In this document: positions 4,053-38,383 of the stretch, in pieces
How the letters are laid out: each line of letters opens with the position of its first letter
Position numbering within the stretch: position 1 is the stretch's first letter
IMG/VR virus record: IMGVR_UViG_3300046691_000106
Location: 1 to 49,242 of that record
Direction: 5' to 3' (one strand)
Length of the DNA stretch: 49,242 nt
From: a virus
Made by a program: the position numbers and the translations under genes
The notes under the pieces: model-generated
What the model was told of the DNA's origin: nothing
Database searches by the model: none
The model's input: only the letters and a program-made list of their open reading frames with translations

Positions 4053-5240
4053 TCAAGCCTTCCCCTTGGCGGCCTTCGTGATGATGTCCGCCCATTCCTG
4101 CATCATGTCCCGGCGCTGCTCAAGGTACGTGGCATGGTTGTAGACATCGCGGATGATGCTGGTGTCCGCGTGCGCCAGTTGTCGCTCAATCCAATCCCGG
4201 TTGTAACCCTTGTGGTTCATCTCTGTTGAGAACAGATGCCTGAATCCGTGCGGCGATTGTATGCCGGTCAATCCGCACTGCTCGATTACCCCGTTCGCAT
4301 AATTGGTGCCGATCGGCCGCTTGTTGTCCGTCCTGTTCACAAACACGTACTGCAGATGCCCGGTTAGGGGAAGCATGGTCTTCAGTAGCTCAACCGCCTG
4401 CGTCGGGAGGGGCACGGCATGGTTACGGCGCATCTTCATTTTGCTTGCCGGTATGGTCCAGGTGGCTGAGTCCAGATCGATTTCCGACCATTCGGCGTGC
4501 CGGACCTCCCCTGGGCGTGCTGCTGAATAAAGCATGAGCATGAAGGCCGACTTGATCTGCTGGCCAACATTCGCGGCGTTGATCGTCGCCAGCGTCTTCG
4601 GCAACTCGCTGATGGGCAGAAACGGGTGGGGCTGATGCTGCCCGATCTTCTCCGTGACTGCGTGCATTTCTGCCGTTGGGTTGACTGTGATAACTCCGGT
4701 AGCGATCGCGTACCTGAAAACCTGACCCATCAGCTGCCGCGTCTTCACTGCGGTCGCGACGGATCCTCGCTTCTCTATCCGGCGGACGATACTCACGATG
4801 TCCGAGCGGGTTATCGAGCTGATCTGCCGGCTACCGAAGACCGGCAGCCAGTCCAGTTCCATTGCGTTGCTGATCACCCGCAAGGTGCCCGGCGTCAGCT
4901 TTCCTTTGCGGAAGGCGAACCACTCCTCATACACGCGGCGGAACGTGTAGCCGCTCTCCTCAAGGGCCTGAACCCTTTTCTCCTTTCTCGATTCGCGCGG
5001 GTCAACTCCCTGCGCTACCTCTTCGCGGGCTTCATCACGCCGCGCTCGTGCCTCTTTCAAACCAATCTCTGGGTATGTGCCCAACGATATGCGGACTTGT
5101 TTGCCCAGCCAGGTGAAACGGAAGTGCCAGCTCTTCACGCCACCTGGCGCGATGTACATCGTCAATCCAAGCGAGTCGGCGAGCGTATAGGGTTTGTCCT
5201 TGGGTTTTGCCTGTCGAAGCGCGGTATCAGTGAGGGCCAC
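4053..5240 (-). CDS. int: Tyrosine-recombinase integrase, P4 type with DUF4102 arm-binding domain
   Basis: The 395-residue protein has an N-terminal DUF4102 arm-binding domain (about 1-90), a core-binding domain and a C-terminal catalytic domain. Catalytic residues are visible: Arg in SAARPGEVR, the HGFRHLF box, His in LAHAD and the Tyr nucleophile in NHATYLEQRR. It performs site-specific integration of the circular genome. I chose GTG 5240 because AGGGA lies eight bases upstream; a TTG at 5270 is possible but has no ribosome site. It is the last gene of the leftward operon, with its likely arm sites and excisionase just upstream. Confidence 0.95.
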   Translation of the reverse strand: MALTDTALRQAKPKDKPYTLADSLGLTMYIAPGGVKSWHFRFTWLGKQVRISLGTYPEIGLKEARARRDEAREEVAQGVDPRESRKEKRVQALEESGYTFRRVYEEWFAFRKGKLTPGTLRVISNAMELDWLPVFGSRQISSITRSDIVSIVRRIEKRGSVATAVKTRQLMGQVFRYAIATGVITVNPTAEMHAVTEKIGQHQPHPFLPISELPKTLATINAANVGQQIKSAFMLMLYSAARPGEVRHAEWSEIDLDSATWTIPASKMKMRRNHAVPLPTQAVELLKTMLPLTGHLQYVFVNRTDNKRPIGTNYANGVIEQCGLTGIQSPHGFRHLFSTEMNHKGYNRDWIERQLAHADTSIIRDVYNHATYLEQRRDMMQEWADIITKAAKGKA

Positions 5241-10850: not shown

Positions 10851-11060
10851 ATGACTGAGGAATATAAAAAGGTCTTGGGCATACCAGCGGAAAACACACT
10901 GGTTGAAATTGCCTCAAGCCGCGAGCAGCGAAAAGGACAGGACGCAGACCTGTACACGTTCAACGAACTCAACCCGGCAGGCGAGGTTGTAGCAACGCAC
11001 AATATCCGGGATACGATGTCAGTCTATCCGCCTCAGACACGCAGAATTATTGTGGAATGA
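10851..11060 (+). CDS. Small plus-strand protein of unknown function
   Basis: The 69-residue product has a well-placed AAGGAG before its ATG, so it is probably translated. It is polar with a short C-terminal beta-like segment (RRIIVE) and no recognisable domain. It follows the previous small gene on the same strand, and its 3' end overlaps the convergent minus-strand gene by 14 bases. Its opposite orientation within an early operon suggests an independently expressed accessory gene. Confidence 0.65.
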   Translation: MTEEYKKVLGIPAENTLVEIASSREQRKGQDADLYTFNELNPAGEVVATHNIRDTMSVYPPQTRRIIVE

Positions 11061-11373
11061 TCACCTCGTCTCCGGGGTCATTTCGAATCATTAGCATGCT
11101 TTTCTGATCAAATAGTCGCGCCACATTTTGTTTGACCACGAAAACGTGGCGCGGCGCAGCAAGGAAGGGCGCAGAGCCTTTCGGGCCAAGGCCATGCAGG
11201 TGATGAATCATCAGTGTCATTGCCTCGCCTTGTTCCTCTATGCCGTGCCACTCCATCAGCTCAGCGAGCGCTGTCCGCGTACCTTCCATGGCATGCATCC
11301 GAAGTTCTTCCGAACCTTTCGCTTTCCGCTTGTTTGCAGCCTTTGCGCTGCGGTCTGCCTGGCTGGCCGCCAT
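11047..11373 (-). CDS. Phage protein of unknown function
   Basis: The 108-residue protein has a Lys/Ala-rich N-terminus (AANKRKAKG) and a C-terminal part with MTLMIHHLHGLG and EVIIPQ. I do not recognise the family. Its start lies in GTGATG overlapping the upstream stop, with GAGGG at good distance, so translation is coupled. Part of its coding sequence is one copy of the CGCGCCAC/GTGGCGCG palindrome, which reads as Ala-Pro-Arg and Val-Ala-Arg. Confidence 0.65.
   Translation of the reverse strand: MAASQADRSAKAANKRKAKGSEELRMHAMEGTRTALAELMEWHGIEEQGEAMTLMIHHLHGLGPKGSAPFLAAPRHVFVVKQNVARLFDQKSMLMIRNDPGDEVIIPQ
11115..11155. repeat. Palindromic element CGCGCCAC/GTGGCGCG, copy 1
   Basis: CGCGCCAC at 11117-11124 and GTGGCGCG at 11146-11153 form an inverted repeat with a 21-base spacer. 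It lies inside the minus-strand gene at 11047-11373. Near-identical arms with similar spacers occur at 20676-20711 and 26183-26219. Read on the minus strand, its spacer keeps the same W-rich edges as the other copies. Confidence 0.8.
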
Positions 11374-11789
11374 CACGCTGCCCTCTGTGCTGCCACAAAC
11401 GCCTCGGCCTCATACTCCTGTACCGACAGCCTGACTATCTGATGCGGGGCCTTCGAGGTGGCGCACATGTACAGGATCTTCTTCAGTCCAGCGTGTTTGG
11501 CACGACTGCCCACCTCGGCCAGCACCTCCTTGAGCTTGACCGGCGAGTCGTGAATTTCTGCGGCCAGCGCCATGATCAGCAGCACGTCCAGCCCATCCAG
11601 CGGGCGACGTTCGGCACGCCACCAGACATGCGAGGCGCCTATTGCACCACGCTCACGAGCAACCTTGCCTTGGGTTTCAAGCTCAACCAGGTCAGCGCGA
11701 ACTGCCTGAATGGTCATCCCGGATGATTCGGCCAGCATCTTCGCTGTCATGCCTTCGGGGCGGGTGAGATATCGCCAGATTGGAGTCAT
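11373..11789 (-). CDS. Winged-helix DNA-binding protein
   Basis: The 138-residue protein begins with a winged-helix-like segment, about residues 10-60, in which LAESSGMTIQAVRADLVELE forms the recognition region and GKVARERG the wing. The C-terminal half is helical and ends in Ala-rich sequence. It probably binds DNA as an early regulator or recombination helper. It is in the leftward operon and overlaps the next gene at GTGATG. The function beyond DNA binding is unknown. Confidence 0.6.
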   Translation of the reverse strand: MTPIWRYLTRPEGMTAKMLAESSGMTIQAVRADLVELETQGKVARERGAIGASHVWWRAERRPLDGLDVLLIMALAAEIHDSPVKLKEVLAEVGSRAKHAGLKKILYMCATSKAPHQIVRLSVQEYEAEAFVAAQRAA

Positions 11790-11867: not shown

Positions 11868-12326
11868 TCATGCTGCGCGTGCCTGCTGCCAGACGCCCAT
11901 CGCTGTGAATACGGCGTTGGCCTCAGCCTCCGACAAGCTCACGTCGTCCGGTATGGCTATCCACCCTGATCCGATCACATGTTTCTGGTTGGCTGACGCA
12001 CATATCTCGGCGTGCCTCTCGATCATCATCTGTTCGAGCTGCTCCAGCCGGTGCACACCTTCAGTGGTGAACTCGGTGGCTTTGCTGTACTGGGCGCCGC
12101 TGGGCTCTTGGCAGAAAACCGCGATATGCACAGTCCAACGGTGTGCGATGTCGCACAGGGCATCGACAACTGGCAGGCTGCGGATCTGCTTGCAGTTCTT
12201 CCAGTTGAGCATCACCTGCCGGTCTGGCGGTTCAACATCAACCACGGCGGCGTGATTGGTCCGCACCAGGGCGCGGCGGGCACGATCGATTTGAACTCGC
12301 CTGTTGCAGGGCTTGCGCTTGCTCAT
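11868..12326 (-). CDS. Phage protein of unknown function
   Basis: The 152-residue product has a basic N-terminus (MSKRKPCNRRVQIDRARRALV) that could contact nucleic acid, and an acidic helical C-terminus. A central part mentions Cys and Trp residues (NWKNCKQ, HRWTVHIAVF) without a known zinc motif. It overlaps the upstream gene by ATGA. I do not recognise the family. A gap of 78 bases to the next gene holds no clear signal. Confidence 0.6.
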   Translation of the reverse strand: MSKRKPCNRRVQIDRARRALVRTNHAAVVDVEPPDRQVMLNWKNCKQIRSLPVVDALCDIAHRWTVHIAVFCQEPSGAQYSKATEFTTEGVHRLEQLEQMMIERHAEICASANQKHVIGSGWIAIPDDVSLSEAEANAVFTAMGVWQQARAA

Positions 12327-12904
12327 GCTGGCATCACCCAGGTGTTGCCGCCATTCTTGGGAAAGTCGATTTCGTACTTGGCGATCAGACGGTAGAACTT
12401 GCCGGTGCCGATACCCATCCGCTTGATCGTCTGATGACGGCAGATGCCAAGGTCTCTATAGGCCCTGATTCTTTCCGCACAGATCAGATCCTGAGATTCG
12501 TCAACCAACTTTGAGGGTGTTTTCGGCTGCAGATCCCTCGGCTTGCCGTGCATGCCAGCGAGAAATCTGAATCCGTGCCGGTACGCGATGCAGTGAAGCT
12601 GGTTGGTGGACAGTCGAACCTCCTCCGCCACCTGAACGCAGGTCATTGTTTCAGCCATCACGACGATACGATCGATCAGTTCCTGAGGATGACTGCGCGG
12701 CGGGCGGCCAAGCTTCTTCTCTTCCTTCGGCCTGGTGACCTTCTGAGGCGCTTCGATGTGTTTGGCGACCGGACGTGGCTTGCATTCCAAGGGCGGTGCG
12801 CTTTCGATCACCCCGCCATGACGCAGGAACTCATCTACCTGTGCGTTGAGGATTGCGGATTGGAGGCTGTTGTACTGGACCATGCTGATTTCAAGACTGA
12901 TCAT
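12323..12904 (-). CDS. Putative DNA-binding protein with two helix-turn-helix segments
   Basis: The 193-residue protein has an AT-hook-like KKLGRPPRSHP at about residue 85, then two helix-turn-helix-like stretches: MTCVQVAEEVRLSTNQLHCIA and LGICRHQTIKRMGIGTGKFY. The latter resembles recombinase/resolvase-type recognition helices. GGGAG lies before ATG 12904. It probably acts as an early transcription factor. It is first in a run of three genes, separated from the SSB-like gene by a hairpin. Confidence 0.6.
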   Translation of the reverse strand: MISLEISMVQYNSLQSAILNAQVDEFLRHGGVIESAPPLECKPRPVAKHIEAPQKVTRPKEEKKLGRPPRSHPQELIDRIVVMAETMTCVQVAEEVRLSTNQLHCIAYRHGFRFLAGMHGKPRDLQPKTPSKLVDESQDLICAERIRAYRDLGICRHQTIKRMGIGTGKFYRLIAKYEIDFPKNGGNTWVMPA

Positions 12905-20120: not shown

Positions 20121-20309
20121 ATGTACACCGACCCTAACCACCTGCGCGATAAGGCTACGAAGGTGCGCCTCGACGAGGTAGCAGACGATTTACTTACAGC
20201 AATGGCCAGGTTCCACAGAACCCAAAAGGCAGTACTGGCGCGTGACCTGCTCGAGCGTGCTTTGAACCAGATGATGGAAGAGCTTAACGCGAAGACTGAC
20301 GTGGCTTGA
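20121..20309 (+). CDS. Small ribbon-helix-helix-like protein
   Basis: The 62-residue product begins MYTDPNHLRDKATKVRLDEV and looks like a ribbon-helix-helix regulator: a short strand (ATKVRLD) followed by two helices. AAGGAG lies six bases upstream of the ATG. It follows Cro and probably has a CII-like or other early regulatory role, which cannot be proven from sequence. Confidence 0.6.
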   Translation: MYTDPNHLRDKATKVRLDEVADDLLTAMARFHRTQKAVLARDLLERALNQMMEELNAKTDVA

Positions 20310-20637: not shown

Positions 20638-21444
20638 ATGCCCATGTCCAATTCATCTGTCAATTCGCCACTGCTCGCGCCACGAAATGACGACTCTGAT
20701 TTTGTGGCGCGCACGATGTCATCGCGAGAAATCGCCAAACTCACGGGCAAGGCCCACAAGCATGTTCTCGCTGACATCCGCTCGATGCTCACCGACCTTG
20801 AAATTGACTGGGCCGATTGTTCGGCTCAGTACCAAGACAGCACCGGACGAAAACTTCCGTGCTTCAACCTCAATCGGGAGCTCACCGATACGCTGCTGAC
20901 TGGCTACAGCGCAAAGATGCGTCTGGCTGTCATCCGCCGTTGGCGCGAACTCGAGCAGCAAGCGGCGTCACGCGAGGCAGTCACGGCGAACGGCACGAAG
21001 GTGATCGGCGAAATCGCGATCATGGAATGCTTCACGCGTCTGCTGAAGCCTGCGCCGTCCAGCCAGATGCTCATGCTGACGAAGATTGCCGAGAACAACG
21101 GCCTCGATCCGAAGTTTCTCCCAGGCTACGCCGTGGACGCAGCTCCGGATGCCTCCGGCGGCTCTTCCATGCCCACCAAATCGGCTACCGCACTGCTGAA
21201 GGACTTCGGCCTGGGCGGCTCAGTCGTGACCTTCAACAAGAAGCTTGAAGCCGCTGGCTACCTCAAGGTGCTCACCCGCAAGAACTCGAAGCAGGAGGTC
21301 GTCCCATTCTGGTCGATCACTGATAAGGGCCTCGCCTATGGCAAGAACCTGACCAGCCCTCAATCCCCTCGCGAGACGCAGCCTCACTGGTATGTCGATC
21401 GTTTCCTTGAACTGGCCGACCTGATCGGCAAAGGCGGCAAGTAA
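20638..21444 (+). CDS. Rha-family phage regulatory protein
   Basis: The 268-residue protein has the Rha domain: TMSSREIAKLTGKAHKHVLADIRSML near the start, followed by a Tyr/Arg-rich segment (YSAKMRLAVIRRWRELEQ) at about residue 85. Rha proteins interfere with phage growth in hosts lacking IHF. The C-terminal half resembles antirepressor-type DNA-binding tails. ATG 20638 is the natural start; ATG 20716 is possible. The first 75 bases carry a copy of the CGCGCCAC palindrome, read as Ala-Pro-Arg and Val-Ala-Arg. The stop overlaps the next start as TAATG. Confidence 0.85.
   Translation: MPMSNSSVNSPLLAPRNDDSDFVARTMSSREIAKLTGKAHKHVLADIRSMLTDLEIDWADCSAQYQDSTGRKLPCFNLNRELTDTLLTGYSAKMRLAVIRRWRELEQQAASREAVTANGTKVIGEIAIMECFTRLLKPAPSSQMLMLTKIAENNGLDPKFLPGYAVDAAPDASGGSSMPTKSATALLKDFGLGGSVVTFNKKLEAAGYLKVLTRKNSKQEVVPFWSITDKGLAYGKNLTSPQSPRETQPHWYVDRFLELADLIGKGGK
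20674..20713. repeat. Palindromic element CGCGCCAC/GTGGCGCG, copy 2
   Basis: CGCGCCAC at 20676-20683 and GTGGCGCG at 20704-20711 with a 20-base spacer. It lies within the first 75 bases of the Rha gene, just before a possible internal ATG. Its spacer (GAAATGACGAC...) closely resembles that of the 26181 copy read in the opposite direction. Confidence 0.8.
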
Positions 21445-25730: not shown

Positions 25731-25975
25731 GGTGCGCACTGGTTGTAGTGCTGTTGCTTGCCGGCTGCGCACAGCAAGACGCAGGAACCCGGCAACCAGC
25801 CGAGCACAAGACAACGATCTTCCGGTTCACGTCTGCCCCGTCGGTGTGTCCTGAGCCCGAACCACCAAAGGCTGCACTGCGCCGCTTGACGAAGAGCCGT
25901 GACGACTGGAAGCGCTACGCCGAAAGCCTAGAAAAACTCATCCCCTCGGACGCAGAACATGGCCCTCATCCCTGA
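25727..25975 (+). CDS. Small lipoprotein (o-spanin-like)
   Basis: The 82-residue product starts at GTG 25727 with a short lipoprotein signal (VVVLLLAGC), Cys14, and a proline-containing mature part (CPEPEPPKAALRR). It overlaps the preceding membrane-protein gene. Together they look like a second, side-by-side spanin pair close to the holin. The mature part is longer and more charged than lambda Rz1. Confidence 0.55.
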   Translation: MRCALVVVLLLAGCAQQDAGTRQPAEHKTTIFRFTSAPSVCPEPEPPKAALRRLTKSRDDWKRYAESLEKLIPSDAEHGPHP

Positions 25976-26180
25976 ATGGCGTAAGGCCTGGCGAATGACC
26001 AGTGTGCAATTGGCGGTGGCCGGTGCGGTGCTCAATGCGGCAGCGGCGGGATGGTCGGTGTTTCAGGGGGCAGTTGATCCATTGGTGTTCGCTGTCGTGA
26101 ACATGGGGCTCAGCATTGCTGTCGCGGTGTCCCGGGTGATCCAGCAATCGAAGCTGCGCGAACCGACGGTTAACGAATAA
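25959..26180 (+). CDS. Holin
   Basis: The 73-residue protein has two hydrophobic segments (about 13-32 and 38-58) separated by a short polar turn, a basic N-terminus (IPEWRKAWRMTSVQ) and a charged end. It resembles the short phage holins of Pseudomonas (DUF7940 type). It would form the membrane lesion that lets the endolysin reach peptidoglycan. It is near the start of the late operon, far from the endolysin, with its start overlapping the lipoprotein. Confidence 0.75.
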   Translation: MALIPEWRKAWRMTSVQLAVAGAVLNAAAAGWSVFQGAVDPLVFAVVNMGLSIAVAVSRVIQQSKLREPTVNE

Positions 26181-26221
26181 CTCGCGCCACAAATTCAGAT
26201 GCGTCCGTTTCGTGGCGCGAG
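26181..26221. repeat. Palindromic element CGCGCCAC/GTGGCGCG, copy 3 (intergenic)
   Basis: CTCGCGCCAC at 26181-26190 and GTGGCGCGAG at 26212-26221 form a perfect ten-base inverted repeat with a 21-base spacer. It begins immediately after the holin stop. Its right arm abuts the strong ribosome site GAGGTGATC of the next gene, so an RNA hairpin here could limit access to it. Confidence 0.85.
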
Positions 26222-26229
26222 GTGATCAC

Positions 26230-26397
26230 ATGGCAGCTTCAGCAATGATGCTCACCATCAAGCAATCCTGGTGGGTGATGCCATACATCAACGCAGTCGT
26301 CCTGTTCAGTCAGATCACTGGTCTGGAGCCCGACTACGACAAGGTGGCAAGCACTGCGCTTAAGGGAATCAGCATCAAGGCGGTAGACAGTCGATGA
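26230..26397 (+). CDS. Small protein before the portal gene
   Basis: The 55-residue protein starts MAASAMMLTIKQSWWVMPYI, is mostly hydrophobic in the centre and polar at the end. Its ribosome site GAGGTGATC is a near-perfect match. It overlaps the portal start by ATGA. The family is not recognised; the position and hydrophobic segment allow a membrane-associated or head-assembly role. Confidence 0.65.
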   Translation: MAASAMMLTIKQSWWVMPYINAVVLFSQITGLEPDYDKVASTALKGISIKAVDSR

Positions 26398-36595: not shown

Positions 36596-38383
36596 GTGCG
36601 AGTTCTAGAAAGTTTCCTGATTGCCCTAGGCATAAAAGTAGACGAAAAATCTTTTCAGAAGGCTGACGCGGCATTCGGCGGTTTGACGAAGTCTGCCCTT
36701 CAGTTCGGCGCCGTATTAGCCAGCAAACTCGCAATTGACAAAGTAGTTGGCGACTTCAAAGACGTCGGCACGCAGATGGAAAACTTCCACAGGCTGACCG
36801 GCCTGAGCACGCAAAAGGTTCAAAGCTTCGGGCAGGCCCTCGCCGCGATGGGCGGCAATGCTTCTGACGCGCTTGGGACCTTTCAGAAGGTTCAGGAGTT
36901 AATGCGATCGCCGATTACCGGAAAAATCGAGTGGGCTGCAGACGCTGCAAAATACGGGATTGATCCTGACGTAATCATTAAGGCGAAGAGCACTGAAGAG
37001 GCGCTCGCAAACATCGCGGGCGAAATGGAGAAGCTCCCGCTGCTCCAGAAGCGCTTGGCTGGTCAAGCTATGGGGTTCAGCGACGGCGAGATAAATGTGC
37101 TCATCAAGGGCCGTGCAGAGCTCGAAAAACAGCTGGATGTGCGTAACAAGCTCGGAATCATGACCGACAAACAAGTAGAAGACGCGGCTCGTCTGACCAA
37201 GGCAAACAGCGACCTGAACCTGGTCTTTACCGATATGGGAAATACCATCGGCGGCGAACTGACCCCGGCACTTACGGAAATGGCTGAGGAATTTGTTTCC
37301 TTCTACCGAGCCAATAAAGACCTGGTCGACTCGGGGCTTAAGGAATTCTTCGGAGGCGTTGCCGACAATATTGAACTGGCTGCGGCTGCAATGGCGCTTC
37401 TTGGAGGTGCCAGCGCGCTGAAAGGACTCGCAGCCCTGAAGTCTCTTTTGGGCTTGCAGAAAACTGCACCCCCCGCGACCCCGGTGCCAACTAATGGACC
37501 TGGGGGAATCCCATTGATAGCAAGGGCGGGAATTCCTCTCGCTGCGCTCTTCTACTCAAGCAAGTTGAATGAGGGTGAAGATGAAGAGCTCCTGAAAAAC
37601 CGTATGAATCAGGGCGGCGCTCAGGCAGCCGGGCCCATGATCGACTACTTGCGATCCAAAGGTGTGTCCGAAACTCTTGCAAAAGGCATGACTGCCAACA
37701 TGCAAAAGGAAAGCGGATTCCGTGCAGATGCCGTCGGCGATGGTGGGAATGCCTACGGATTACTTCAGTGGCACCCTGACAGGCAGTCAGATTTTGCGAA
37801 GTTTTCCGGGAAGGAAATCCGCGGATCAAGCATAAAAGATCAGGCTGATTTCGCCATATACGAGGCCACAAAAGGCAAAGAGAGAGAAAACTGGAAAAAG
37901 GTTCAGAGCTCTCAAAACGCTTACGAGGCGGCAGCTGCTTACTCAAAATACGTTATACGACCTGCCGATAGAGAGGGTGAGGCCGATGAGCGCGGCAGAA
38001 TTGCTGAGTCCTACGGGGGCTCTTCACCGACTGCTTCAACGGCTCCAGAAGTCACCGACGAGCAACTGACCAAGCTCCGCGCCGGCTACGGCAAGCCAGA
38101 GCAGCCGCAGGAAGGCTTTCTAGATCAGACCAAGTCGTGGCTCGACTCCTACCGCAAACCCCCGCGGGAGTACTCAGTGGACGCGGTCGTGCAGCCCCCG
38201 GCCAAGGCCGCAGAGGCCCCGAGTCAGCAGGCGATGCCAGCCGCGGCAACCCCTGCCTACAACGACAACCGCCAGTTCCACATCCACGGTGCCGACACGG
38301 AAAAGGTCAAGCAGCTCTACAACGAGCAGCTGAGCGGACTCACTGAGTCGACGATGGAAGATTTCAGGAGCCCAGAACGATGA
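36596..38383 (+). CDS. Tape measure protein with tail lysozyme domain
   Basis: The 595-residue protein starts at GTG 36596. The N-terminal part is helical with Ala-rich and coiled segments, a hydrophobic stretch near 265-290, and a phage tail lysozyme-like domain from about residue 348, with a probable catalytic Glu in ANMQKESGF near 372 and AYGLLQWH after it. The end is proline-rich. Tape measures set tail length; the length suggests a moderately long tail (about 90 nm by the usual 1.5 angstrom per residue rule). The lysozyme domain would locally open peptidoglycan during entry. Confidence 0.85.
   Translation: MRVLESFLIALGIKVDEKSFQKADAAFGGLTKSALQFGAVLASKLAIDKVVGDFKDVGTQMENFHRLTGLSTQKVQSFGQALAAMGGNASDALGTFQKVQELMRSPITGKIEWAADAAKYGIDPDVIIKAKSTEEALANIAGEMEKLPLLQKRLAGQAMGFSDGEINVLIKGRAELEKQLDVRNKLGIMTDKQVEDAARLTKANSDLNLVFTDMGNTIGGELTPALTEMAEEFVSFYRANKDLVDSGLKEFFGGVADNIELAAAAMALLGGASALKGLAALKSLLGLQKTAPPATPVPTNGPGGIPLIARAGIPLAALFYSSKLNEGEDEELLKNRMNQGGAQAAGPMIDYLRSKGVSETLAKGMTANMQKESGFRADAVGDGGNAYGLLQWHPDRQSDFAKFSGKEIRGSSIKDQADFAIYEATKGKERENWKKVQSSQNAYEAAAAYSKYVIRPADREGEADERGRIAESYGGSSPTASTAPEVTDEQLTKLRAGYGKPEQPQEGFLDQTKSWLDSYRKPPREYSVDAVVQPPAKAAEAPSQQAMPAAATPAYNDNRQFHIHGADTEKVKQLYNEQLSGLTESTMEDFRSPER

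Follow-up and report, generated by a model that had tools for sequence, protein, structure and literature searches.

A long two-fold DNA site at three fixed places in Pseudomonas temperate phages, with PHROG 5439 as its candidate binding protein

Arc/Mnt-type proteins control ant in phage P22. In the cluster A mycobacteriophages L5, Trixie and TipsytheTRex, a monomeric repressor binds stoperators, which are asymmetric 13-mers present more than 20 times per genome in short intergenic spaces and oriented with transcription (PMC6550527, PMC9283540). The element described here resembles each of these in part. As with the stoperators, several putative regulator sites are scattered over a temperate phage genome outside classical promoters, and their spelling differs from phage to phage. 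With stoperators this follows the regulator of each phage; here a possible counterpart is a residue-spelling link that involves few independent switches. Unlike the stoperators, the sites are long palindromes, one to four per record, two of the three studied here lie inside genes, and the reader protein is a candidate only. Neither a stoperator-type asymmetry nor a count of 20 or more is seen, and both arms are alike in 60 of 64 sites (44 records). The likeness to P22 lies in a small, possibly ribbon-helix-helix protein at an antirepressor-type gene, but the site here, 36-37 bp long, lies inside the gene, has 28-29 bp between its half-site centres and is found again at two distant loci. An Arc-like gene (PHROG 4113) is present, but it does not track the type of site.

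The window, a 49,242-nt stretch of DNA from an IMG/VR virus record, has the Pseudomonas phages psageK9, phiPSA1 and MR15 among its nearest named-phage DNA relatives. It carries three exact copies of the spaced inverted pair CGCGCCAC-N20/21-GTGGCGCG, where none is expected (100 dinucleotide shuffles). The 8-mer arm on its own is only mildly enriched (9 seen, 4.3 expected); it is the spaced inverted pair rather than the lone arm that stands out. An earlier note on this DNA had described the copies from the letters alone, and its positions and spacers of 21, 20 and 21 bases are exact (Table 1), as are the ten-base arms of the third copy (CTCGCGCCAC/GTGGCGCGAG). It was also right in placing two copies within genes and the third in an intergenic gap beside a ribosome site. 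The second copy lies in rha and the first in a minus-strand gene; the gap runs from the stop codon of the holin-like gene (26178-26180) to the ATG of the next ORF, with AGGTG upstream. The sites are called L, M and R in order of position. Elsewhere in the window, the late region (26395-46962) shows, across 58% of the half that was queried, about 77.5% likeness to MT835615.1, a 'Bacteriophage sp.' sequence without annotation that comes from human faecal samples. A 193-aa PHROG 9129 gene on the minus strand (12323-12904) weakly resembles the SutA RNA-polymerase-binding domain, below the threshold for a match.

Table 1. Sites and neighbouring genes in the window
Feature	Position	Strand	Remarks
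L site, CGCGCCAC-N21-GTGGCGCG	11117..11153		within 3' part of PHROG 5439 gene
M site, CGCGCCAC-N20-GTGGCGCG	20676..20711		38 nt into rha gene
R site, CGCGCCAC-N21-GTGGCGCG	26183..26219		2 nt past holin-like stop; adjoins ribosome site of next ORF
PHROG 5439 gene, candidate binding protein	11047..11376	-	109 aa from GTG 11376; ATG next at 11373
rha-type antirepressor/regulator gene (Phage_pRha), M site in 5' end	20638..21444	+	PF09669 E 2.9e-16
Holin-like gene (DUF7940), ahead of R site	25959..26180	+	PHROG 1356 holin E 1.8e-17; PF25612
55-aa ORF directly past R site	26230..26397	+	PHROG 9557, catalogued function unknown
Small Arc-like gene (PHROG 4113), 369 bp upstream of M site	20121..20309	+	disfavoured as specificity factor

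The search of phage and Pseudomonas genomes that the earlier note had proposed finds the element widespread and in many phages. A scan of viral contigs that allowed spacers of 18-24 matched at least 120 stretches, and 122 of 129 distinct matches, among the matches listed, have a spacer of 20 or 21. In 11 phage sequences, arms with no mismatch or one occur only with these two spacer lengths, and two mismatches give background. At least one site is present in 68 of 149 Pseudomonas genomes drawn evenly across the genus, against one in the backwards control. Among bacterial genomes, only Pseudomonas yields matches whose inner edges are W-rich; exact matches outside the genus lack these edges and look like chance. 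Paper searches of the open-access literature found no description of the element, and a KfrA paper that contains both arm strings has them as primers.

From 244 distinct spacers the half-site is read as CGCG[C/A]CAC-R-WWW-Y, with the WWW triplets mainly TTT, AAA, ATT and AAT and with T-A steps rare. Two such half-sites, in opposite orientation, flank a centre that varies. The bracketed position distinguishes the spelling of the window (C type) from a second one, CGCGACAC/GTGTCGCG (A type), which is found at L, M and R alike; a control scan with G or T at this position gave chance matches only, as judged by edge score. The spelling is concordant between M and R in 14 of the 15 records with at least two exact sites outside the L gene. 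When the L-gene protein was used as the query instead of DNA, 206 relatives were found, and their in-gene L place holds CGCGCCAC..GTGGCGCG, CGCGACAC..GTGTCGCG or degenerate forms of either. In Rha, the encoded residues shift with the change from C to A, from APR..VAR to ATR..VSR, and since the protein changes with the DNA spelling, selection acts on the DNA. The earlier note had recognized that arms conserved only as Rha protein would undo the idea of a DNA element; that case is not what is seen, as the arms also persist where the reading frame is another one and in a gap between genes. The element is almost certainly a real, symmetric, type-matched protein-binding site. Sites of the two types, one of each, lie 32 bases apart in one Pseudomonas genome (G272, contig C8:21711-21815).

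The places of the sites were compared between the window and the annotated phages phiPSA1, Medea1, Cruim01, Aurca01 and MR15. In all of these, rha, ant, roi or a similar gene contains the M site at 34-41 nt into its sequence, the R site directly follows the stop codon of a lysis or lipoprotein gene, and the L site is in the 3' part of a small gene of the left operon. The three places are constant even in phages that have different genes there, and some phages have one further site among their late genes. The centres and the spacer lengths differ among the sites of a single phage, and likeness between spacers is confined to half-site positions or to one position class. One of the site-bearing phages, Cruim01, also has a retron-type reverse transcriptase and an annotated misc_RNA in its left operon (L267:27661-29051).

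The L gene is the candidate for the binding protein. Every L-gene product subfamily tested matches PHROG 5439, which is catalogued as of unknown function (E 6.6e-37 for the gene in the window), and the libraries searched attach no DNA site to this family. Of 14 site-bearing phages 13 have PHROG 5439, whereas none of three site-less phages does. The exception is YMC, which has one R site and no member of the family in either part read. Of the records selected for C sites 37 of 44 have a member, and of those selected for A sites 23 of 39; broader profiles recovered more divergent members in 6 of 13 re-examined records; judging from the site spacing, several of the remaining member-less records probably end before the L region. 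Among the 149 genomes, 53 have both sites and family, 15 of the 68 site-bearing genomes have no detected member, 17 have the family only and 64 have neither (Fisher p 2e-12, an association that is partly expected since both are prophage markers). No other gene family separates site-bearing from site-less phages as well, and most are equally present in the site-less ones. CI, Cro, Rha and the small Arc-like protein did not emerge as binders.

The residues before a Gly-Thr pair in PHROG 5439, in what may be its DNA-binding strand, vary with the M/R spelling. Leu occurs with 16 A-type and no C-type phages, Arg-Pro with 26 C and no A, and Met with 13 C and 3 A, under a rule that was set after seeing the data and with a Fisher p of 1e-11 that is uncorrected for relatedness. 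Across the 76 phages, nearest-neighbour class agreement is 94-97% with close relatives included. Closely related proteins with HTM or HTL differ in spelling accordingly, and the protein tree holds only five type changes, with two well-supported independent pairs. Because the type switches are so few on the tree, the link is suggestive of PHROG 5439 specificity rather than proof of it. PHROG 5439 is, by a small margin, more likely than not the binder of the sites.

AlphaFold models the single chain (pLDDT 84.7) with a basic N-terminal helix, an extended stretch at about 20-30 and helices at 31-43 and 49-62, and no strand is assigned in the monomer. This topology possibly resembles ribbon-helix-helix proteins, and membership in that group is not claimed. 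The spacing of the half-site centres exceeds the usual ribbon-helix-helix spacing. No Pfam or NCBIfam family was matched, a PDB sequence search gave nothing convincing, and the best Foldseek match was not significant (E 4.1), several of the weak matches being VapB, MazE-mt1 and Reg576 chains. PHROG 5439 also occurs in a tandem two-domain form of about 170 aa, in which the L site lies between the domains (L611-L620, e.g. L615:1501-2007); its AlphaFold model (pLDDT 51) is too poor for use.

The reading we prefer, at a probability of roughly 0.45, is that the three copies are operators of one phage-encoded two-fold DNA-binding protein, most likely PHROG 5439, that obstructs transcription at three points. 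As the product of the gene with the L site in it, PHROG 5439 would be expressed from the left early operon. Bound at L it would obstruct transcription within and beyond its own gene, at M just inside rha or ant, where the right early operon begins, and at R at the boundary between lysis and late genes, and so would hold down or time the lytic programme. That the sites silence by acting as roadblocks is the more tentative part of this reading. Obstruction at three points would resemble the action proposed for stoperators (PMC9283540, PMC6550527). In broader terms, and put forward no more firmly than the operators themselves, this may be a new regulatory system of Pseudomonas temperate phages, in which PHROG 5439 reads a long two-fold site in its own gene, in an antirepressor gene and at the lysis/late boundary, with two immunity-like classes set by one or two residues, in prophages of about half of the Pseudomonas species. 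If so, a widespread phage protein family catalogued as unknown would gain a function and a DNA code, and there would be an explanation for a conserved element that is easily missed, two of its three places being within genes. The two natural specificity classes would at times meet in one cell (G241, G264), which makes cross-talk between prophages directly testable.

The sites may instead be real binding sites of another protein, either a conserved Pseudomonas protein that takes both spellings or Rha/Ant, the PHROG 4113 product or CI, with the L gene a mere host. We regard this as a serious possibility at somewhat under even odds. It would suit the restriction of the sites to Pseudomonas and the frequent disagreement of the L spelling with that of M and R (G030, G034, G059, G105, G133, G134, G136 and others). 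It would also suit sites without PHROG 5439, as in YMC and in two genomes that seem truly to lack the family, G020 and G108, where the left site sits in the 3' end of unrelated genes. These unrelated genes (near 38291 in G020 and near 5084 in G108) end in ..ENVSRH.. and ..SEKVSRH.., which resemble the site-encoded tail of PHROG 5439 and Rha genes. Against another binder is the failure of any rival gene family to separate the phages as well. The type is also not set by the host, since C-type and A-type sites occur in separate prophages of one cell (G241, G264 and G183), which rules out host-determined spelling. The Arc-like PHROG 4113 was rejected as specificity factor, since near-identical proteins accompany the C spelling in G004 and the A spelling in many others.

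It is unlikely that the sites serve partition, tethering or nucleoid organisation, in which a protein bridging the sites would serve the folding, tethering or segregation of the phage DNA and hardly affect transcription directly. Two to four palindromes roughly 5-10 kb apart could serve such a protein, and ribbon-helix-helix proteins are centromere binders elsewhere, but the sites lie at operon landmarks (gene starts and stops) and are unclustered, unlike a centromere, and no partner ATPase was noticed in an analysis directed at other genes. Less likely still are recombination sites with a tyrosine-recombinase-like core that exchange modules at conserved boundaries. Two inverted arms of 13-15 bp about a centre of 6-7 bp, in mosaic genomes whose L differs from M and R, have that appearance, but the equal central overlap that recombination calls for is contradicted by the differing centres and spacer lengths within one phage, integrase is equally common in site-less phages, and M lies within a reading frame.

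It is very improbable that the element works as an RNA hairpin or cruciform, in antitermination or in translation. The arms are complementary, and one position covaries between them (C:G to A:T), but this is the only arm position that varies, and it takes C or A only. Over the 244 spacers, pairing of the spacer edges is below shuffled at position 9 (117 vs 140), no more than shuffled at 10 and 13, less at 14 and somewhat more at 11 and 12, where the excess may reflect A-tract polarity. The lack of consistent pairing at the edges argues for a two-fold protein-binding site rather than a hairpin, and the avoidance of T-A steps in the A-tract is a feature of a duplex.

The earlier note had weighed a regulator's binding site that couples early and late genes against a mobile palindromic element, inserted in frame like the Rickettsia palindromic elements. 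The first stands as a predicted protein-binding site that has a fixed place in each of three operons and comes in two symmetric specificity types. The mobile element can practically be dismissed: the copies within reading frames leave these unbroken and share that setting with the Rickettsia palindromes, but here there is no trace of insertion, the places are fixed, the centres are not common between positions, and conservation is of half-sites only. The relatives without the insert that the note had looked to are not found at the M place of Fyn8, U9 and EV13, which keep a decayed 36-base stretch, equal in length and changed by 5-6 substitutions without any indel. The PHROG 5439 family and intact sites are both absent from these three phages and from D3 and F116 (the latter two read over 50 kb), and such erosion in place in phages without the protein is in keeping with a binding site and not with an insertion.
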